DNA of 64,000 nucleotides from Pleurostoma richardsiae (Eukaryota; Ascomycota; Sordariomycetes; Calosphaeriales; Pleurostomataceae): assembly GCA_030052745.1 (NCBI GenBank), contig JANBVO010000012.1, positions 496,001 to 560,000 of the forward strand, written 5' to 3'. Both the position numbers and the translations under genes were made by a program. This document shows, piece by piece, positions 37,571 to 55,783 of the stretch. The notes below the pieces were generated by a model, which searched no databases, was not told the origin of the DNA, and saw only the letters and a program-made list of their open reading frames with translations. Positions within the stretch are counted from its first letter, which is position 1. The number at the start of each line of letters is the position of its first letter.

Positions 37571-39016
37571 TCACTCATGCTCGGTTCTCTCGTCGACATT
37601 CTCTCTTCTACCACTCAAAACTCCGCTCCCGAACTTTGAATTCTTGCGCCGAAAAACGAGCCAGCATTTCGGATCTAGACACATCAGCCTCCGCAATTTG
37701 ATGTTTGCAACGTGCATCACGGCTGCCGAATGTCTGTAGCCGGGGACATCCTCTGGAAAGAGGATGTATAATCTGGAGTGCTGTGACTCGTCCGGCCGGA
37801 ACTTGTCGTGGTATGCCTTCTTGCCGCCAACCGGGATAGCACGGAACATTGCGCAAGACGCGGTGCGCGTAAGTTTCGCGATACACTGTGGCATGCCGGT
37901 TATATCCCTTAGCTCACTGTGAGGCTCATAGCCGAGGCTCAGGTAGGAAATGCCGGCACGATTGAGGAGGGCCATAGCCGCAAAAATGAGCAGGTCGGTG
38001 ATACCGCGGGAGGCGCCAAGCGCAGCGATGCAGGGGTCAATGTGGAAGCCGGTATTGACGCCGAGCTTTCTCAGAGCGGCAAAGCCGTTGGGCGAGCCAT
38101 CAGGGCCTCTTGTGAAGATATAGGTCATCAGCGTAGGGAGGGCGAAGGGATCGTAGACGGTGATGAACGCCTGGGCTTTCCCCTTGCGCTGGCGATTCCG
38201 TTCTGAGCGTCGGGAGTTGTAGATGTTGGCCAGCTGCTCCTGCAACACCGAGTCTACTCCTATGGAAGGGCTGTACACTTCTAGAGTGATCCCTCCTCTG
38301 TCAGGATCGAGGAGCTGCCTGCTCTGGCTGATGATGCGTTTGCCGGCGCTCTCGAGCAAAACAGGATTTGTGAGCGGATTGAGGACGCGTTCCTCTCCGA
38401 AGTGTACGGTAACCCACCCCTGCTCCTTGGCGTAGCTTGCAAGATGGTCGTGGGCTCCGAGGAAGGCGATTCCCCAACCATTCTTCCGATACTCCTTGAA
38501 ATCTTCCAGGACCGATGGAATCTGCTGGGGTGGGCACAGTGGGTCTCCACCGACTACAGCGATCTTGTTCTTGACCTTGAACTAGAGGGCCGCATCCCTA
38601 GCGTGAGTAAGGAAGAATCTATAGCTCTCGTCTAATATTCCCATGTGCGATGCTCGCCCATAGCGTTGGATGAGCAAGTCGAGAGCGGCTGTAGCGGTGA
38701 AGTCGTCCAGCGTAAAGACGTGGCTCGTTCTGCCAACAGGAAAGGAGCAGGTGTGCATGTGATCAGTCGAGGTCATGCTTGCGCAGGAAGTTGTAGATTG
38801 GGTTGAGCTGTAAGGGTTTTCGTGAGGTGTGTATTTACTTGCCAAGTCGACGGACGTCGCAGTCGACTGCATTGGCGATGTCTGAGCGATGGATAGACGC
38901 GCTGGCAAGTCTAGGGGATCTGCGGCGTCGTGGAGACTGCGAAGGAGTCGATCTGCCATGTCCTTTCCCAATTGCTGGAATAAGTATTCTCTCGTCTGAG
39001 GCTGTGTGGGCCCCAT
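37571..39016 (-). pseudogene. DUF2156 (LPG-synthetase C-terminal-like) gene with in-frame TAG
   Basis: One frame of 482 codons from the ATG at 39016 to the stop at 37571 encodes a DUF2156 protein, the GNAT-like fold found at the C-terminus of bacterial lysyl-phosphatidylglycerol synthetase. Markers after the midpoint include IAVVGGDPLC, GWGIAFLGAHD, and a C-terminal segment with CWLVFRRKNSKF. The frame is broken once, by TAG at 38584-38582, between LTHARDAAL and FKVKNKIAVVGG, both of which look conserved. No GT lies close upstream that would allow an intron to remove it. A CAG-to-TAG or TGG-to-TAG transition would suffice. It could be a young pseudogene, a sequencing error or a recoded stop. 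No functional aminoacyl transfer is assumed. Confidence 0.75.
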
Positions 39017-45756: not shown

Positions 45757-47041
45757 ATGTTCTCACGGCTATCTATATTCCTCCTGGCCCTTGCACCGAT
45801 CCTGGTGCACGTGTCCGGCCGCCCAGCGGCATGCAAGGCGACGCCCAAGGCCGCCAAAGCCGTCTACGTGATGAGCAACGCTCAGGCAAACTGTGTCGCC
45901 GCCATCCCGATCGGAGCCGACGGCATGCTTTCGAATGGTACATGCACGGTAACAGGCGGCGCGGGCTCGAACTCGATCGATGGTACGACCAACCAGCCCG
46001 CCGCTCCAGACGCTCTGGTGTCGCAATCGTCGCTGACAATAGCCGGCAACGTACGTCATCACAGCGAATAACACTGACTTCCTAGTCATGCTTACGCCTC
46101 ATTAGAACCTCTTCGTCGTCAACGCCGGATCGAATACGGTCTCCATGCTTTCTATCGACTCGGCCGATCCCACCAAGCTGACGATGATCGGGCAGCCCGT
46201 GGCTGTTCCGGGCGAGTTCCCCAACACTGTCGCCGCGTCGAAGAAGAACAACCTCGTCTGCGTGGGAATGACGGGCGCGAAGGCAGGAGTCGCATGCAGC
46301 TCCTTTTCTGCACAAGGGATCGCGGCCATGGACACCCTCCGCCCTATCAATCTGAACCAGACGACGCCGCCCGTGGGCCCTACGGATACAGTTTCCCAGG
46401 TCTTCTTCTCAAACGACGAGAACACCCTGTTCACCACGGTCAAGGGCGACCCAACGAAGAACAATACTGGCTTCTTGGCCAGCTTCCCGGTGCAGCGTGC
46501 CTGCGGCAGCAACTCAAAGGGCGCGAGGAGCGCGGGACCCGCCTCCGTCAGCCAGATGGGAGTCATGTCATCGCCAAGTGGTACAGCCGTTCTCTTTGGC
46601 TCTTCGACCATCCCTGGATCCACCGACCTCTTTGTCACGGATGCCTCATTCGGCGGAACTGTCTTGGCTATCGACCCCGAGGCCGACACGGCTACTCTGA
46701 AAGGCAAGGCCACAGTGGATGGGCAGAAAGCAACCTGCTGGGTCACCATCTCTCCCGCGACCAACACCGCATTCGTCACGGACGTCTCGGTGAACAGACT
46801 GGTGGAGATGTCTGTGTCAAATGCGAGCATTCAGGGTCAGATCGACCTCAGCGCCAATGGAGACCCCGGCCTGATCGACCTTAAGGCGGCAGGTAACTTC
46901 ATCTACGCTCTCAGCCCCGGCAACGGAACCACCCAACCGGCGGTGACGGTGGTGGACGCCGTTGGCAAGAAGCAGTTGCAGCACTTTGGACTGGATGCGC
47001 TCGGACTGGACAAGAACGCGCAGGGCATGGCGATTCTGTAG
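45757..47041 (+). CDS. Secreted lactonase-like beta-propeller protein
   Basis: Two exons (45757-46050, 46106-47041; GTACGT donor, CATTAG acceptor) give 409 residues. A clear signal peptide (first 21 residues, hydrophobic core FLLALAPILV, then the small residues HVSG) precedes repeated propeller strands such as NLFVVNAGSNTVSML, VFFSNDENTLFTTV and NFIYALSPGNG. This is the group often labelled 3-carboxymuconate cyclase or 6-phosphogluconolactonase-like, but secreted fungal members lack proof of that activity. Several NxT/S sites suggest glycosylation. Some relatives are reported as immunoreactive surface proteins in human-infecting fungi (Gp60-like). The function is unassigned. Confidence 0.85.
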
Positions 47042-48238
47042 AAAGACAGCGTGTGGAGGAAATATATTTCCCTCTCGTCTCCAAATTCAGTCTATTCTGC
47101 GCTGAATAATAGCCACTGTTTCGGAGCTAAGTTCCCTCGTCATTACAAATCCAAGTGGTTCCATTATGATCTCACCGTGCTCCACAAAGTGTGAGTTGCG
47201 AACCTGAGAATCATGATGAATAGAAGCTGATGGGGACATTCGCACACTACTGGAAATGAGGTTCAGTAGAGGCGAGGTTCAGGGCGGAGACGGAAAGCTG
47301 CGCACGGCACTGTCCTCTCTTACATCCACTCCTTACCAACTTCCCGACAGCAGTTGGCTCTTGACTTCACACTTCACATGGATAAGTGTTAACTTCCCAC
47401 AGAGGCAGATTAACGCCAGTGCCAAGGTCCTCGGGTCTGTCAAGTGCCCGAATATTCAGTCGGACAAGTAGACGTTGATCATTATTGAGCGTACGCTGTT
47501 GAGTAAAGCTTCATGTGGGTGGCACTATAAGTGATACGATCTCAGCAATGCGGATAACACGGACGATAATGAGCAGTCACTCGGTACCAAAGCAAGACCG
47601 CTGGTTTGGCCGTGGTTGCGGCGGTCGGCGAGCCTCCGCCCGCCCGTGAGTCAAGAACAGACGTTACAAAGGAATGCCCCAGTTAGCATATGTTTCTAAC
47701 GGCTACACAGCCACAGATTGTGTTGCCTAGGTACCTAGGTCGGTTCACTGAGTATTGAGCGGTACGAGATACGTGCAATAAGACCTATCAGGTCTTGAGC
47801 GAGTCCCATCTAGTGGTCGGGTGGGTGTTGCTTAAGTACTTGAATTGATCACTAAAGTACTAAGAAAACGTCTAGAGTTGATCTATGGAAATTCCTGGTT
47901 CTTACCGTCTTTCCTTCTCTAATCTAGCTGACTTGCTCACTTGGCTCACGCCTCCAAGTGATCTATGTTTATTTGGTCTTTGATTGTTCCGTTGCCTCTA
48001 TTACTGGTAGGAAATGTCGTAAGAAGAGCATCGCATTATTATCGCACTTTCGTTCTAGTGCCCCGACCCGCGTGTGGTAGAATGTTGTTATCATGTTGAG
48101 TGTCAGTGTCAGTGGTGCGGTTTTCTGGCGCCTGTCCTGGGACCGTGGTCTCGGCCTACGAGGCATGCCAGCATGTCAAGTCCCTGACACTGCGAGACCG
48201 GGGCCTGCCCATCTCTATTGTTCCGGCTTTGGGCGGGC
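47042..48238. other. Intergenic with GGTACC palindrome
   Basis: This is about 1.2 kb between the propeller stop and the AdhE stop (convergent). It contains the perfect palindrome CCTAGGTACCTAGG at 47726-47739. No gene is supported. Confidence 0.5.
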
Positions 48239-51139
48239 TCAGTGCGTGGGGCTGGCGGCCTCCGCCTCCGCCTCCGCCGCGGCGTGGCGGGCGACGACCT
48301 CCTCGTACGAGATGCCGTAGTACGCGGCCTCCATGATGGTCTTGAGGTCATCGAGCATCGGCATGCGCGGGTTGGCGGGCGCGCACTGGTCCTCGTAGGC
48401 GCGGAACGCCACCTTGTCGAGGTTCGCGAGGAACTCGTGCTCGTCGACGCCCTGTGCCTGGAAGGAAGACTCCATGCCGAGCGTCGCGCGGAGGTCCTCG
48501 ACGGCCCGTGCGTACGACTCGACGCCCTCCTCGGGTGTGGATGCCGGCAGCCCCAGCATCTTCGCGATGTCCTGGTACCGCTGCGGCGCGACGTACTTCT
48601 CGTACTTGGGCCAGCTCGTCAGCTTGCTCGGCACCTTGCCGTTGTAGCGGATCACGAGCGGCAGGAGCGTCGCGTTGGTGCGGCCGTGTGCCTTGTGGTA
48701 CGTCGCGCCGATCGTGTGGGCCATCGCGTGCACGACACCCAGGAAGGCCGAGCCGAAGGCCATGCCGGCTATTGTTCCGGCGTTGTGCATCTTCTCGTGG
48801 GCCTTGACAGCGGACGCGCCCCCGGCGACGGACGCCGGCAGGTTCTCGAAGATGAGCTTGATCGCCTGGAGCGCCAGGCCGTCGGTGAAGTCGTTCGCGT
48901 ACACGGACACGTAGGCCTCAGTCGCGTGAGTGAGCGCGTCCACGCCGGAGTCCGCGGCGAGCCTGGCCGGCATCCCGAGCGCGAGCGTCGGGTCGACGAT
49001 CGCGACGGTCGGCGTGAGCGCGTAGTCCGCGAGCGGGTACTTGTAGCCGGTCGCGGGGTCGCCAATCACCGCGAACGGCGTGACCTCCGAGCCGGTGCCC
49101 GACGTCGTCGGGATGCACACGAGGCTCGCCTTCCCGCCGAGCGGCGGGAACGTGAAGGCGCGCTTGCGGATGTCGAAGCACTTCTCGCGCGTGTCCGAGA
49201 AACTCACCTCCGGGTGCTCGTAGAGCAGCCACATGACCTTGGCGGCATCCATGGGGGAGCCGCCGCCAACCGCGACGATGGTGTCGGGCTCGAAAGTGCG
49301 CATGATCTTGGCGCCAGCCTCGACTGTGCCGATCGAGGGCTCTGGCTCGATCGTGTCGATGATGTGCACCGTTACCGGGTTTGACCTGCGGTTCAGCACG
49401 TCCTCAATGCGGTCGACCACACCGAGCTTGCTCATCACCGCGTCGGTCACGATAACAACCCTGTTCACGTCCGGCATGTCGGCCAGGTACCGGATTGAGT
49501 TCGGCTCGAAGTAAACCTTAGCCGGCACCTTGAACCACTGCATGTTGTTATTGCGGCGTCCAATGCGCTTGACATTGATGAGATTCGCCGCCTGCACATT
49601 GTTCGAGACCGAGTTGTGGCCGTAGCTGCCACAGCCGAGCGTCAGCGACGGGAGGAACGAGTTGTAAACATCGCCGATGCCGCCGAGCGAGGCGGGCGAG
49701 TTCGTGATGATGCGTACGGCCTTGACGCGTCGGCCGAACTCCTCAATGAGCACCTTGTTAGTGCTGTGGATGCAAGCCGAGTGGCCGAGACCGTCCTGCT
49801 CGACCATCTGCTCGGCGAGGCAGATGCCGTCCTCGGCGTCCTTGGCGCGCAGCACCGCTAGGATCGGGCAAAGCTTCTCACGGGTAAGCGGCTCGTCGAG
49901 GCCGACGTGGTCGACCTCCACGAGGATAATCGAGGTGTCCCTGGGCACCTCGAAGCCCGCCTGCTTCGCGAGCCACACAGCGCTCTTGCCGACGATCGCC
50001 GGGTTGAGCTTCGCGCCCGCGCAGTTCTCAGAGTAGGCGGCCGCGCCGAACGACAGCTCCTCGAGCTTGCGCTTCTCGTCGCGGGTCGCGATATGGGCGT
50101 GCAGGCGCCGCATCTCGGCTAGCGCCCGGTCATAGACCGGGGCCTCCAGGATGGCGGCCTGCTCGGATGCGCAGATCATGCCGTTGTCGAACGACTTGGA
50201 GAGCACGAGGTCGCTCGCGGCGCGCTCCACGTCCGCGGTCTTCTCCACGAACGCGGGCACGTTGCCCGGGCCGACGCCAATGGCAGGCTTGCCGCACGAG
50301 TAAGCGGCCTTGACCATCGCGCCGCCGCCGGTGGCGAGGATGACGGAGACGTCGGGGTGGTTCATGAGCGCGGTGGTCGCTTTGATTGAAGGCACCTCGA
50401 TCCACTGCACGCAATTTGCGGGGGCCCCTGCGGCGACAGCGGCGTCACGGACAATCCTGGCGGCCTCCGCAGAGCACCGCTGCGCGTGCGGGTGGAAGCC
50501 GAAGACGACCGGGTTGCGCGTCTTGAGGCAGATGAGCGCCTTGAAGACCACGGTCGAGGTGGGGTTCGTGACGGGCGTAATGGTGGCGACGATGCCGACA
50601 GGCTCGGCGACCTCGATGATGCCGTTCAGGTCATCACGGCTGATCACGCCGACGGTCTTCATCTTCTTCATCGCGTTCGTGACATGCTCGCAGGCAAAGA
50701 TGTTCTTCACGGCCTTGTCCTCGAACACGCCGCGGCCGGTCTCGTCGACGGCGAGCTTCGCAAGCACGCCATGCTGGTTGAGCGCTGCGACGGACGCCTT
50801 GGCGACGATGCGGTCGACTTGCTCCTGGTCGAGCGCCCGGAACTCAGCGAGGGCACGAACCCCGCGCGCGACGAGGCCGTCGACGTGCGCCTGCACGTCG
50901 AACGCCGCATCTGGAGCGGCCACCTTGGGCTTCACGGCGGCGGGTGCGGGCATCGCTACGTCCCGCTTCTGAATCTGAGCAGCCGCGGTAGCGTCGCTGC
51001 AGCGACGAGGGCCCTTCAGCAGACCATCTCTCTGGACATCCCGAATCGGGATCCTGATCCTACGATTTTGTGAGCTGCTACTGCAGAACGAATGGTGAGG
51101 AGCCTTGAGGTGTTGATTAGACGTACTCTCCTGTGACAT
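48239..51139 (-). CDS. adhE: Bifunctional acetaldehyde/alcohol dehydrogenase
   Basis: One uninterrupted exon encodes 966 residues. Residues about 80-510 form a CoA-acylating aldehyde dehydrogenase with catalytic Cys323 in SFDNGMICASEQ. Residues about 525-945 form an iron-dependent alcohol dehydrogenase with the NAD motif GGGSPMDAAK and metal ligands in DSGVDALTHATEAY and GVVHAMAHTIGATYHKAHG. The enzyme reduces acetyl-CoA through acetaldehyde to ethanol and regenerates 2 NAD+. AdhE is typical of fermentative bacteria and of some anaerobic or facultative protists, algae and gut chytrids. Before the conserved region lies a 62-80-residue Arg/Ser-rich extension that could target an organelle; a second in-frame ATG is at 50953. 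The gene is intronless and visibly G+C-rich, and lies divergent from pta, which suggests acquisition by transfer. Confidence 0.96.
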   Translation of the reverse strand: MSQESTSNQHLKAPHHSFCSSSSQNRRIRIPIRDVQRDGLLKGPRRCSDATAAAQIQKRDVAMPAPAAVKPKVAAPDAAFDVQAHVDGLVARGVRALAEFRALDQEQVDRIVAKASVAALNQHGVLAKLAVDETGRGVFEDKAVKNIFACEHVTNAMKKMKTVGVISRDDLNGIIEVAEPVGIVATITPVTNPTSTVVFKALICLKTRNPVVFGFHPHAQRCSAEAARIVRDAAVAAGAPANCVQWIEVPSIKATTALMNHPDVSVILATGGGAMVKAAYSCGKPAIGVGPGNVPAFVEKTADVERAASDLVLSKSFDNGMICASEQAAILEAPVYDRALAEMRRLHAHIATRDEKRKLEELSFGAAAYSENCAGAKLNPAIVGKSAVWLAKQAGFEVPRDTSIILVEVDHVGLDEPLTREKLCPILAVLRAKDAEDGICLAEQMVEQDGLGHSACIHSTNKVLIEEFGRRVKAVRIITNSPASLGGIGDVYNSFLPSLTLGCGSYGHNSVSNNVQAANLINVKRIGRRNNNMQWFKVPAKVYFEPNSIRYLADMPDVNRVVIVTDAVMSKLGVVDRIEDVLNRRSNPVTVHIIDTIEPEPSIGTVEAGAKIMRTFEPDTIVAVGGGSPMDAAKVMWLLYEHPEVSFSDTREKCFDIRKRAFTFPPLGGKASLVCIPTTSGTGSEVTPFAVIGDPATGYKYPLADYALTPTVAIVDPTLALGMPARLAADSGVDALTHATEAYVSVYANDFTDGLALQAIKLIFENLPASVAGGASAVKAHEKMHNAGTIAGMAFGSAFLGVVHAMAHTIGATYHKAHGRTNATLLPLVIRYNGKVPSKLTSWPKYEKYVAPQRYQDIAKMLGLPASTPEEGVESYARAVEDLRATLGMESSFQAQGVDEHEFLANLDKVAFRAYEDQCAPANPRMPMLDDLKTIMEAAYYGISYEEVVARHAAAEAEAEAASPTH

Positions 51140-52674
51140 TATTGCCTCCTAGGCTAGACTGTTCCTTTTCCAGGAGGGGGTCCCCCATGCGCTCGCAAAC
51201 AATGACCGGTTCCGCAGCCCTGTATAGTGCAGACATAGCTGTGGCTAGGCTTTCGGTGTGAGTTGGTGTCCTCACATAAGCGAGCACTACAGTCAGTAGT
51301 ACTCTTCAGCAGACTTGTACGGTGAGCTCTAGATAGGTACGAGACGAAGGCACGACGGGGTCTGCTTCTGTCGTGGGCGAGTCTTCGCTTGCTTAAATGT
51401 ACAAAAGCACGTTTCCACATAACATCTCGAGCACCACGCCTCCCGCTTGGTAATGCCATTCCATTATTCACCTCACCGTAAAATCACCGCAGAAGAATAA
51501 GAGGGTCACAGCCTCTGGTGTCAGGCAACCCGAGAGTGACATGTTTCCGCAGGTACCCATCTTTCTGGAAAATATTTAATTTTAGTAGTTCCCGCCGCGC
51601 CGGTGTGCACAGCACATGTTGTTGAGAGATAGGGGCTGTTTAGTTGCCAGATGGTGGCGAGACACCGGGTATAGAGGAAAGCCACCCCGGGCCTAGACCG
51701 GTATCGAAACTTTCCCATTGTTTCATTGATCGAATAATGCGTACCTGGATGTCTACACTAGTTGACTAGCAACGGCCCTTGACCGGCGCGCTTCTGTCCT
51801 CTCGATACAGCTAACTGCTTTGGGTGGGTTGACATATTTGTCTCGCGATCTCCTTATCGGCACCGTCGGCGGCGCAACTGCGGCGTACAGGAACATCTTC
51901 GATTGAACGGTCCAAGCCATGATTGATTGGCATGTTTTCGACTGTGACTCACTGGCAAAAAGCCGCAAGGCGCGGCGAGCACCGATCGCGGCGAAGCAGC
52001 CTGAATGCCATTCCAGCTGATCAGGCCATAAGCTGCAGGCCATTAAAGCGCCATTAAAGCACTGTCGATCGTTGGGACCCGGGAAAGGCTTTACGAGGGT
52101 CAACGAGGGGCTGTTTTCAGCGTGTCGTTGATGGACGGAGCCACAAATCGACAGGGCGTGTTCCGTGATCTTACAGGGCCTAAGTGTTCAAATTTTCCAG
52201 TGAGATACCATGAACCCCCACCCAAGGAGTCACCGCTTTTCCCCTTTACACAGAAGTACTCTTCTGTCTTTAACGTCGACGTAAGCGTGTGGCTTATCGT
52301 AAGGTAATATGAGCCCAGGTCTAAATAGAAGCTTGGCTTTTGGTATAAAGAGAAGTTGGTGTTCTATTAGGTATGTAGGGGCAGGTACATTGAGAATCCG
52401 AATTGTTTCTAGAGATAGGTAGCTCTCGCCCCCCTTAGCCCATGGCTCACGGCATTGGAAGAGATCCAACTTCACAGCGCTTAGCATCTTAGAAGTCCGG
52501 CGTGACCGCGGCCTGCAGTAAGGAAGGTATTTAGGGCATCGTCCGGCAACTCGAGGCACCAAGCGGCACCTATTCCCTCTCCCTCTCCCCGGTATGTAAA
52601 GGCCCCAAGACGCTTGGGAAGACGCTCAGGAAGAGAGAAACACACCTCTGTGTGTCAGCCACAGCACAGCCGCG
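51140..52674. promoter_or_regulatory. 1.5-kb divergent adhE/pta control region
   Basis: No gene is supported here. Toward pta there is a TATA-like TATAAA at 52344-52349, and a pyrimidine tract (CCCTCT repeats, 52573-52590) directly before a GTATGT at 52592-52597 that could be the donor of a 5'-UTR intron ending at one of the CAG triplets just before the ATG. A short tandem GCCATTAAAGC lies at 52039-52060. Long upstream regions like this are typical of carbon- or oxygen-controlled fungal genes, but no specific site can be assigned. Confidence 0.4.
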
Positions 52675-54837
52675 ATGACGCTTCTGCGGGAAAGCCAGCA
52701 CAATCGGATCACCTTCTTCCTCGCGCCCGTCGCCCGGAATGTCGGGCTGACGTCGATGGCGCTCGGCCTGCTGCGTGCACTGCGGCGAGACGGCCTCACC
52801 CGGGTAGGCTACGTCAAGCCGGTCGCCCAGCCCAGCCTAGGAATCGACCTGTCTGCCCAGCTTGCCCGCACTCTGTACGGTCTGTATCACATTGAAGCAG
52901 TCAACTCGATCCCCTTCGCCGTGGCCGAGCAGCGGTTACGCGATGGAGACGTGTCGGCGTTGATGGAAGACGTCGTTAAGGTGGTCGAGGCAGCGCGAAC
53001 CAGTGCTTGCGACGCAGTGCTCGTCCAGGGCTTATCCTTGGACATTGGTGCAGATGCGGACCTCCAGCTGGCCTCGCAACTCAACGCTCAGATGGCGCGC
53101 GCTCTGGGTGCTAATGTGATACCAGTCGCCTCTGGTACGCAATACCAGTCCGTGGCCGAGAGCATTGAGATGGTCACTCGGCAGTTCACCGACGATGATG
53201 GCCCAACTCTGGCCGGTTTCCTAATCAACAAGATACCGCCGCTGGCCGACGAGATCAAACTGCTGGGCCCCAAGGATGTCGCCCGTCTCAAGGGGAGTCA
53301 GGGTGTACCGCTCTTGGGCTCTGTGCCCTTCGAGCCGCGTCTCAATGCACCACGTCTTGTCGATATGATCAGCAGCCTCGGGCTCCAGGTGTTACGTGAA
53401 GGCTGCGGGACGGCCAGCACCCGTGTCTTCGGCACTGTGGTAGCGACACGTTCGCCGGAGCACATGCTCGGAAAGTTGAAGTCGAGGCCTGGAGCGTTGG
53501 TCGTGACCCCCGGAGACCGCAGTGATGTCGTGCTGGCCACAGTACTGGCTTCCATGTTGGGTACTCCTGTGGCCGGCCTGTTGCTGACCTGTGGCGAGCC
53601 CCTCTCGGAAGAGATATCTTCCTTGGTCATGCAGTCCCAAACCCCAGGGTTGACCATTCTCGCTACCAACGACGACACCTTCGAGACGAATGCCCGTCTG
53701 GCCACTCTCGACTACCACTTGTACAACACCAACGATCCAGAGCGAATCAACCAGGCCCTGGATTACATAGCGGAGCACATCGATACGGCGGCCCTGATGC
53801 GACAGGTTGGCGAACCTGGTGAGCTGCGTCTCACGCCACCTGCCTTCCGCAACCTCCTCGTCCAGATGGCAGTTGAAGCCAAGAAGCGCATCGTCCTACC
53901 CGAGGCCGATGAGCCTCGCACGCTCCAGGCCGTGGATATCTGTCACCGCAAGAACATCGCACGCTGTGTTCTTCTCGGCAACCCGGCCACCGTCTACAAG
54001 GCTGCAGCTGCGCAGGGGGTGACGCTTCCCCCGGATGTCGAGATCATCGATCCAGACCAGGTGCGCGAGAGATATGTTGCGCCCATGATGGAGCTTCGGA
54101 GAAGCAAGGGCTTGACGGCCGAGGAAGCTAGGGCACAGTTGCAGGACACGGTGGTGCTTGGCACTATCATGCTGGCATTAGGCGAGATGGACGGCTTGGT
54201 GTCCGGGGCGACGCACACAACGGCCAGCACAGTGCGTCCGGCACTCCAGCTGATCAAGACGGCACCACATGCCAGACTGGTGTCGAGCGTCTTCTTCATG
54301 TTAATGCCCAATCGGATGGTCGTCTTCGGCGACTGTGCCATCAACCCGAACCCGTCCGCCGAGGATCTGGCAGACATCGCCCTGCAGACTGCTGATTCTG
54401 CCGCCATGTTTGGCGTCGAGCCCCGAGTCGCTATGATATCTTATGCCAGCGGCACCAGCGCCAGAGGCAATGAGGTTACCAAGGTCGTCGAGGCACTGAC
54501 GCTGGCGAGGGCGAAGAGACCTGGCCTTCTCATCGATGGACCGATGCAGTACGATGCGGCGACTGTGCCCACTGTTGGTCAGCAGAAGATGCCCCACAGC
54601 TCCGTGGCCGGCCGAGCGAATGTCTTCGTCTTCCCGGACCTGAACACCGGCAACACAGCGTACAAGGCTGTTCAGCGCTCCGCCAAGGTGGTCAGCGTCG
54701 GCCCAGTGCTGACGGGGCTGCGGAAGCCAGTCAATGATCTGTCGAGGGGCTCATCTGTAGACGACATTGTCTATACGATTGCTCTGACCACGATTCAGGC
54801 CGCTCAAGCGAGAGAGAACTCGAGTCTACCGGCGTGA
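52675..54837 (+). CDS. pta: Phosphate acetyltransferase, bacterial long form
   Basis: A single exon encodes 720 residues, matching the long bacterial (E. coli type) Pta. The N-terminal third is a P-loop-like dethiobiotin-synthetase-related domain (FLAPVARNVGLTSMALGL replaces the usual P-loop, so nucleotide binding may be lost). The middle third is a DRTGG domain (about 225-335), and the C-terminal third (about 390-712) is the PTA/PTB catalytic domain with KKRIVLPEADEPRTLQA, LGEMDGLVSGATHTTAST and PDLNTGNTAYKAVQR. It interconverts acetyl-CoA plus phosphate and acetyl phosphate plus CoA; with acetate kinase this yields ATP. Pta is rare in fungi, where phosphoketolase with acetate kinase is the usual acetyl-phosphate route. 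No organelle signal is evident. Confidence 0.96.
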   Translation: MTLLRESQHNRITFFLAPVARNVGLTSMALGLLRALRRDGLTRVGYVKPVAQPSLGIDLSAQLARTLYGLYHIEAVNSIPFAVAEQRLRDGDVSALMEDVVKVVEAARTSACDAVLVQGLSLDIGADADLQLASQLNAQMARALGANVIPVASGTQYQSVAESIEMVTRQFTDDDGPTLAGFLINKIPPLADEIKLLGPKDVARLKGSQGVPLLGSVPFEPRLNAPRLVDMISSLGLQVLREGCGTASTRVFGTVVATRSPEHMLGKLKSRPGALVVTPGDRSDVVLATVLASMLGTPVAGLLLTCGEPLSEEISSLVMQSQTPGLTILATNDDTFETNARLATLDYHLYNTNDPERINQALDYIAEHIDTAALMRQVGEPGELRLTPPAFRNLLVQMAVEAKKRIVLPEADEPRTLQAVDICHRKNIARCVLLGNPATVYKAAAAQGVTLPPDVEIIDPDQVRERYVAPMMELRRSKGLTAEEARAQLQDTVVLGTIMLALGEMDGLVSGATHTTASTVRPALQLIKTAPHARLVSSVFFMLMPNRMVVFGDCAINPNPSAEDLADIALQTADSAAMFGVEPRVAMISYASGTSARGNEVTKVVEALTLARAKRPGLLIDGPMQYDAATVPTVGQQKMPHSSVAGRANVFVFPDLNTGNTAYKAVQRSAKVVSVGPVLTGLRKPVNDLSRGSSVDDIVYTIALTTIQAAQARENSSLPA

Positions 54838-55783
54838 AGAGAGCCAGGTAGATTACCTTTCCTGGATCAGGACATATTACTGCAACGCCATGTCGAAAGA
54901 CACAATTGCCGCGTCAGTACTACGCTCTTGAGCCCATCAGCATGGTTGTCGACCATATTGGCAAGTGCGTTGTACGACGATTATCAGTGTATGAACACAT
55001 TCGGTTCACGTCATATAGAGAATCTGAAACGCCGCTAGACGGTGGAGGCGGGGAGTTATAACGATGGGTATGCGGCCGGTCGGCTTTCGATAACTAAAAG
55101 GTGAGCTCTGTGGATAGAATATTAGACAGCTGGTAGATCTGGGTTTCGCCTGTCAGAGTAGATTAGGGCGTGGTTGTAACGGTCTGCGAACCCGCCCATG
55201 GCTATATAGTTCCCTAGAGCATTAATAACCACAAATCGGCTTTTCTGTTTCGCTCCATCCCATCCATCTGCCAGAGGGTTTCATTCCCATATCGTTGCAG
55301 CTCTCGAACACAAGGACAGCCAGGAACCTGTTGAACAGAGCTGGGGCTTTTGGGAAGCTCTCTTTCTATATATAATCCCGTCATTATATAGATGATACCC
55401 TATCGCCGTACTGTCTGCCTCGGCGAAACCTGAAAACCCTGTTGGCGGAGAGTTTACCCAACATTTCCACCGCGAAATAACGAAGGGACTCGCGACTTCC
55501 CCGCCTTATCGTCCAACACCGCAGCATTCGCGAAATGGTACTGGGCATCTCGCTGGTGGTGGTCCAATTCGTTCGGTTCGGCTCACAATTTGCCGTACAC
55601 CAAATTGGGCGCCTGCAATGCCTCCCAATGAAGCCAATGGCCCGATCGAGGCCTGTACTTGTCGGCGAGGTCGCTAGGGATGGCCGCATCGATCATGTCA
55701 ACGAAGCGATCATCTGGCCTAATATATCCGGAGACATCGTTTGTTAAGAGCGACAAACTGTAATTAACCCTCCACGTATTTAA
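54838..55783. other. Convergent 3' regions
   Basis: This is 946 bp between the pta stop and the NLR stop. No gene or mobile-element coding is visible. A CTATATATAATCCCGTCATTATATAGATG stretch near 55365-55393 is an imperfect A+T-rich inverted repeat that could act in transcript ending. Confidence 0.45.

Follow-up and report, generated by a model that had tools for sequence, protein, structure and literature searches.

A divergent adhE-pta gene pair of bacterial type in the ascomycete Pleurostoma richardsiae and its possible place in a fungal phosphoketolase pathway

The adhE-pta locus and its two proteins

The stretch of DNA analysed here (the window, 64,000 nucleotides) comes from a deposited assembly of Pleurostoma richardsiae (Calosphaeriales, Sordariomycetes) and holds two genes of bacterial type, adhE and pta, that point away from each other. 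The adhE gene (48239..51139, minus strand) encodes a bifunctional acetaldehyde-CoA/alcohol dehydrogenase of 966 amino acids, and pta (52675..54837, plus strand) encodes a long-form phosphate acetyltransferase of 720 amino acids. Each gene is a single open reading frame (ORF), open from start to stop and identified by profile and domain matches. From start to start the two are 1,535 bp apart (51140..52674), a divergent intergenic region that is delimited by the ORF positions and is presumed to be a bidirectional promoter. The whole pair, which is known from this single assembly, spans 6.6 kb. An earlier note, made from the letters of the window, had described two full single-ORF genes for AdhE and long-form Pta, diverging around a region of about 1.5 kb in an ascomycete, and this description holds in each of its parts.

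AdhE scores 1354 bits against the equivalog model NF010378 (cut-off 951) and carries the Aldedh, Fe-ADH and ADH_Fe_C domains fused in one protein. Its residues C323, H453, D734, H738, H804 and H818 are all kept, as judged from motif positions and from an alignment to the solved chain of 6ahc/6tqh, which we take to be Escherichia coli AdhE. Following the E. coli numbering and the roles that we assume for these residues, C323 is presumably the catalytic cysteine, and D734, H738, H804 and H818 are the four metal ligands. One motif pattern was too narrow for the control P0126 and hence gave no match there. A search of AdhE against its own genome returned at least 10 matches, namely itself in full and nine partial, weaker ones (21–37% identity), and the window AdhE is the only full-length match of its kind found.

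AdhE begins with an N-terminal extension of 62 residues ahead of an inner methionine (50954..51139, minus strand), recognised by alignment and by comparison with bacterial-type AdhEs. The extension is longer than in all eight bacterial-type AdhEs inspected and has a net charge of +6. It can be aligned with the extension of P0121, the nearest AdhE relative, with a score of 59 upstream of the inner methionine, which none of 2000 shuffles reached. The P0121 extension has a net charge of −3. Given this shared extension, P0121 is taken here as fungal. The extension of the window AdhE is a possible mitochondrial signal. It is also evident that P0121 keeps the aldehyde dehydrogenase cysteine; in its alcohol dehydrogenase half, two of the four metal ligands are replaced by R and Q. 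As a separate observation, P0121 may be becoming an acetylating aldehyde dehydrogenase alone.

Pta scores 817 bits against the equivalog model NF004167 (cut-off 418), and its domains AAA_26 (residues 13–226), DRTGG (239–343) and PTA_PTB (391–705) are those of the long form. S690, R691 and D697 are invariant across a 16-row alignment; by the role assigned to them in Methanosarcina Pta, they presumably form the catalytic Ser-Arg...Asp set. We further noticed that residues 591–592 are A-S in this protein, where bacterial relatives have a nearly invariant S-T. The N-terminal lead of Pta is short, which suggests that the protein is cytosolic. The window Pta is the only PTA_PTB match found in a search of its own genome, a count that is a lower bound.

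Bacterial relatives and the origin of the pair

The protein search with AdhE scored 7993 relatives, the best 120 of which were listed. Among these 120, P0121 stands at 78% identity and the next ones at 70–74%, and the named relatives among the matches listed are actinobacterial (Cellulomonas, Actinotalea, Cellulosimicrobium, Sanguibacter and similar genera); the class membership of named genera is our assumption here and for Pta below. Two trees were built, one from the window protein, 34 of the 120 relatives and 4 locus rows, the other from the window protein, 21 of the 120 and 1 locus row. In the first, with Psychromonas and Ligilactobacillus as outgroup, the window group falls inside a set with actinobacterial named members, and Embleya lies outside it. 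In the second, AdhE forms a group with P0121 and P0122 (support 100/99). The AdhE stem branch measures 0.33 changes per column. A plasmid search at 60–80% identity gave three records, including an Embleya AdhE at 66.9%. When AdhE was searched in seven records (E ≤ 1e-30), five of the seven matched, Embleya (66%) and Chromobacterium (49%) in full and the other three in part.

For Pta, the best 120 of 2086 scored relatives were listed. P0010 is a partial protein that shares 95% identity with the window Pta over 391 residues, and the others listed share 54–64%. The names among these listed relatives are mostly alphaproteobacterial (Telmatospirillum, Rhodospirillum, Roseicella, Magnetospirillum, Rhizobium), together with some betaproteobacterial Chromobacteriaceae and one metagenome-assembled genome labelled Sulfotelmatobacter. 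The AdhE and Pta of P. richardsiae itself appear in neither list, presumably because proteins encoded by the window are left out of them; that the strain lacks the genes was considered and set aside, as the window belongs to that assembly. The first Pta tree comprised the window protein, 36 of the 120 relatives and 10 locus rows, and the second the window protein, 20 of the 120 and 3 locus rows. Pta and P0010 stand in a group of nine rows holding Telmatospirillum, with support 96/97 in the second tree (10 rows in the first), and the Pta stem branch measures 0.61 changes per column. Across 385 genomes of the alphaproteobacterial class of Haematospirillum, a single genome, that of Haematospirillum itself (G002), gave a match to Pta at E ≤ 1e-180, with 56% identity; this sample therefore held no near donor of Pta.

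By their named members, these searches and trees show the nearest relatives of AdhE to be Actinobacteria and those of Pta to be Alphaproteobacteria. They bear out the claim of the earlier note that both enzymes are of bacterial type; in the trees both fall among bacterial proteins. These results suggest that adhE and pta very probably came from two separate bacterial donors, and that they most likely became back to back inside fungi after two transfers. The earlier note had allowed for transfer as a unit or assembly after transfer; assembly is favoured over unit transfer, since the closest relatives of the two genes come from different phyla. If one bacterium with a mosaic genome had passed on adhE and pta as a ready-made unit, a single transfer would account for the physical pairing of the genes, and that bacterium may be unsequenced. 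Chromobacterium does have a related Pta (56%) besides its AdhE. A scan of bacterial contigs with the Pta alignment gave at least 80 pta loci with flanks of up to 10 kb, short in some, which were used as outgroups and for comparing neighbourhoods. In two of the 80, both Psychromonas (L044 and L050), adhE lay within the pta flank, at 45–47% identity. As these loci are mostly from Gammaproteobacteria and not of donor type, this test of neighbourhood barely covers donor-type bacteria. The Embleya record that carries the 66% AdhE has no PTA_PTB match within that plasmid record, and among the 385 alphaproteobacterial genomes AdhE matched in 19 at E ≤ 1e-150, with a best identity of 48% against the 70–74% of its bacterial-type relatives. 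On this evidence we regard transfer of a ready-made unit as very unlikely.

The contig that carries the pair is 799,379 bp long and has fungal genes on either side of it. Farther left of adhE, domain searches found fungal Zn-cluster, RTA1 and PhyH genes. The immediate left neighbour is an ORF convergent with adhE (46145..47041, plus strand) and is without a Pfam match, so that the view of the earlier note that the flanks are multi-exon or fungal-specific is only partly checked. A neighbouring MYND-finger ORF is identical to a P. richardsiae protein at all 1166 aligned residues, and a 23-residue stretch of the ORF that is missing from that protein fits a spliced intron. Directly adjoining pta on the right, and convergent with it, is an NLR-like gene with AAA_16 (below the curated cut-off) and TPR matches in Pfam, read in two frames (55784..58262, minus strand). 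NLR-like genes often signal fast-changing fungal regions. Another gene in the window (37571–38581) has PF09924 (LPG_synthase_C), whose fungal relatives presumably aminoacylate ergosterol. A repeat search of 46800–56000 gave just two short direct families (20 and 28 nucleotides, two copies each) and one imperfect inverted pair, and the idea that repeats or inverted arms mark a mobile insertion around the pair was rejected. Scanning the window for tRNAs, and against Rfam with its gathering threshold, gave no matches.

Since both genes look bacterial and are intronless, we considered whether they might reflect an assembly chimera or bacterial contamination. The length of the contig and its fungal genes argue against this, as does the presence of two donor phyla inside 6.6 kb. 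Proteins of bacterial type come no nearer than 64% (Pta) and 74% (AdhE) identity, the stems are long, and relatives exist in other public data, at 95% for Pta (the partial P0010) and at 78% for AdhE (P0121, with the common N-terminal extension). Contamination is unlikely on these grounds, and in our estimate extremely so. Codon usage fails to separate the pair from GC-rich bacterial genes. Its correlation with 12 host genes is 0.915 for AdhE and 0.866 for Pta, within the range of host genes among themselves (0.595–0.968), and the bacterial controls gave 0.903 (Embleya adhE), 0.89 (Rhodoblastus pta), 0.523 (Haematospirillum) and 0.562 (Escherichia). The GC content at third codon positions is 0.883 for AdhE, 0.871 for an exon of the host acetate kinase and 0.915 for Embleya. 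Codon usage was dropped as evidence of origin, since two of the four bacterial controls resemble the host as well as the pair does.

Metabolic partners and the proposed function

The genome was searched for the partners that the earlier note had asked about, and domains were confirmed on exon pieces. Acetate kinase (Ack) is present at one locus (contig C1). Phosphoketolase (Xfp) is present at two loci, one on the contig of the window (C24), about 360 kb from the pair, with XFP_N, XFP and XFP_C across two frames, and one on contig C68 (296500–300500), which consists of several open stretches and is apparently intron-rich, the C24 copy being simpler. Thus all the enzymes of a phosphoketolase-Pta-AdhE ethanol branch, Xfp, Pta, AdhE and Ack, are encoded. 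For the pyruvate formate-lyase family the genome search gave no match (3 of 14 control genomes were positive), which removes the usual entry to mixed-acid fermentation. The earlier note had likened the pair to the mixed-acid arrangement of bacteria; this comparison is not supported in that form, as pyruvate formate-lyase gave no match whereas phosphoketolase and acetate kinase are present. We also found three matches to Oxidored_molyb and three to NIR_SIR (on two contigs), which are domain matches alone and are not told apart from sulfite enzymes.

The pair most likely belongs to the ethanol branch known from heterofermentative bacteria and not to mixed-acid fermentation. We propose that it extends the resident fungal phosphoketolase pathway. 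Xfp would split xylulose-5-phosphate (or fructose-6-phosphate) to give acetyl phosphate, Pta would convert acetyl phosphate to acetyl-CoA at no cost of ATP, and AdhE would convert acetyl-CoA to ethanol, regaining two NAD+. Acetate kinase would be the other outlet, giving acetate and ATP. The ethanol and acetate outlets together could act as an adjustable redox/ATP valve under low oxygen, chiefly on wood pentoses, where xylitol dehydrogenase would produce surplus NADH. P. richardsiae lives in wood, grapevine and olive and occasionally infects humans, and a role in hypoxia is plausible. That adhE and pta are a two-transfer pair extending the phosphoketolase pathway is overall the best explanation of the locus, although we hold it with no more than even confidence. 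A flux from acetyl phosphate through acetyl-CoA to ethanol is favoured to nearly the same degree. We are more tentative about the fullest form of the proposal, in which an actinobacterial and an alphaproteobacterial gene under shared divergent control would make up a natural, carbon-saving PK-PTA-AdhE ethanol route, the one that engineers devised for yeast fermenting xylose, that serves as a hypoxia and pentose redox valve in wood. Expression, co-regulation, compartment and the direction of flux are what we infer from the genes.

Engineered strains provide some precedent for the separate steps. In an Aspergillus niger strain deleted for ack, a bacterial Pta gave phosphate acetyltransferase activity and more citrate than in strain S469, and the same paper describes acetyl phosphate being converted to acetyl-CoA by Pta in one step with less ATP (PMC10219267). 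In yeast with PTA and an acetylating acetaldehyde dehydrogenase overexpressed, and no phosphoketolase added, the ethanol yield on xylose rose by 25% (Sonderegger et al., as given in the review PMC5425999).

Several points weigh against the proposal that a two-transfer pair extends the phosphoketolase pathway. With regard to origin, the placement of both genes in phyla depends on the named rows, and the nearest bacterial-type rows, P0001, P0002 and P0122, are not among these. P0001 as the exact sister of Pta and P0010 has a support of 93/89, which is not firm. In the first Pta tree the chosen outgroup was split and did not fall on one side of a branch, and in the first AdhE tree the deep forks among actinobacterial rows are not settled and the outgroup branches are very long. 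With regard to function, which is proposed here from the genes, the Xfp genes are unlinked to the pair. Yeast with phosphoketolase overexpressed made acetate instead of ethanol on xylose, according to PMC5425999. AdhE and Pta may lie in separate compartments if the AdhE extension is a mitochondrial signal. In addition, P0121 lacks two metal ligands, and the alcohol dehydrogenase half is consequently not constrained in every lineage; in the lineage of P0121 it seems to have been released from constraint.

Other functions were also considered for the pair. It might perform a mixed-acid-like split of glycolytic acetyl-CoA, with AdhE giving ethanol and NAD+, Pta and Ack giving acetate and ATP, as in the earlier note, and the acetyl-CoA coming from pyruvate dehydrogenase or citrate lyase in place of pyruvate formate-lyase. 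Ack is indeed present; from the same acetyl-CoA, bacteria gain ATP through Pta-Ack and consume NADH through AdhE (PMC3660698), and in Chlamydomonas and Phytophthora it is Pta with which Ack works (PMC9983610). We nevertheless consider such a split unlikely, given the absence of a pyruvate formate-lyase match in the genome search and a Pta that has no long N-terminal lead. Cytosolic acetyl-CoA of fungi, moreover, usually costs ATP, which would cancel the gain. A different possibility is that AdhE runs in reverse to oxidise ethanol, that Pta-Ack then yields acetate and ATP, and that nitrate takes the electrons. Such fungal ammonia fermentation, in which nitrate is reduced to ammonium and ethanol is oxidised to acetate, is described in PMC2817877. 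The Oxidored_molyb and NIR_SIR domains of the genome would fit it. Sulfite oxidase and sulfite reductase carry these domains as well, no nitrate reductase was singled out among the matches, and AdhE usually favours reduction. We rate ethanol oxidation as a rather improbable role.

It could also be supposed that the two enzymes have separate roles, Pta being a carbon-saving supply of acetyl-CoA from phosphoketolase for lipids and polyketides, AdhE being an unrelated enzyme of detoxification or ethanol assimilation, and their adjacency being coincidence or co-regulation. Citrate is made from cytosolic acetyl-CoA, and A. niger engineered with a PK-PTA route makes more of it (PMC10219267); prokaryote-derived genes are common in fungi, with 20,093 across 750 of 829 genomes (PMC11708051). 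In this genome, two transferred enzymes of acetyl-CoA diverge from one gap, and the chance of one named gene adjoining another is about 2 divided by the gene number, a rough figure as transferred genes may cluster. We judge separate roles to be decidedly improbable, and an extension of the phosphoketolase pathway remains the reading that we prefer.

Comparison with known systems

Among the papers listed by a literature search that left most subscription papers outside, none describes an adhE-pta pair in a fungus or a long-form Pta of alphaproteobacterial type in an ascomycete. Should the proposal be true, metabolic partners from unrelated bacteria would have become a divergent pair completing a native fungal pathway, and the locus would be a case of gene pairs that selection assembles once the genes have been transferred. 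Its Pta and AdhE would be natural enzymes, already adapted to a fungus, for a route that engineers have put together piece by piece in yeast and Aspergillus, and the fate of acetyl phosphate in filamentous fungi without oxygen would become a directly testable question. Strain RB-1, a filamentous fungus and facultative anaerobe placed in Lecanoromycetes incertae sedis, produces both acetate and ethanol, and PMC2817877 mentions its Ack activity as unpublished data.

AdhE in a fungus is not wholly new. PMC5125639 records it in the ascomycete Togninia minima as well as in Piromyces and Neocallimastix, and the window AdhE resembles these in being a fungal AdhE, one of them likewise from an ascomycete. 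It differs in its actinobacterial type and in its pairing with Pta, a distinction drawn from description and not from sequence comparison. Similarly, the known partner of Ack is Xfp in fungi and Pta in Chlamydomonas and Phytophthora (PMC9983610). P. richardsiae is like these systems in having both Xfp and Ack and in being a eukaryote with Pta; unlike them, it is an ascomycete that has, together with Xfp and Ack, a long-form Pta of alphaproteobacterial type, and here too it is set apart by description rather than by sequence.

Two further systems come closer to the proposed route. The heterofermentative phosphoketolase pathway of lactic acid bacteria uses the same set of enzymes (Xfp/Xpk, Pta, AdhE and Ack) to turn acetyl phosphate into ethanol, or into acetate and ATP. 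P. richardsiae differs from it in being eukaryotic, in having Xfp and Ack as unlinked resident genes and in having a Pta and an AdhE whose relatives lie in other phyla; the comparison on this side is one of genes alone. The engineered PK-PTA-AADH Saccharomyces cerevisiae (Sonderegger et al. 2004, through PMC5425999) likewise combines Pta with an acetylating acetaldehyde dehydrogenase in a fungus and leads acetyl phosphate to ethanol on xylose. In contrast to that strain, the set in P. richardsiae, seen as a gene set alone, is natural, with a resident Xfp and a bifunctional AdhE.

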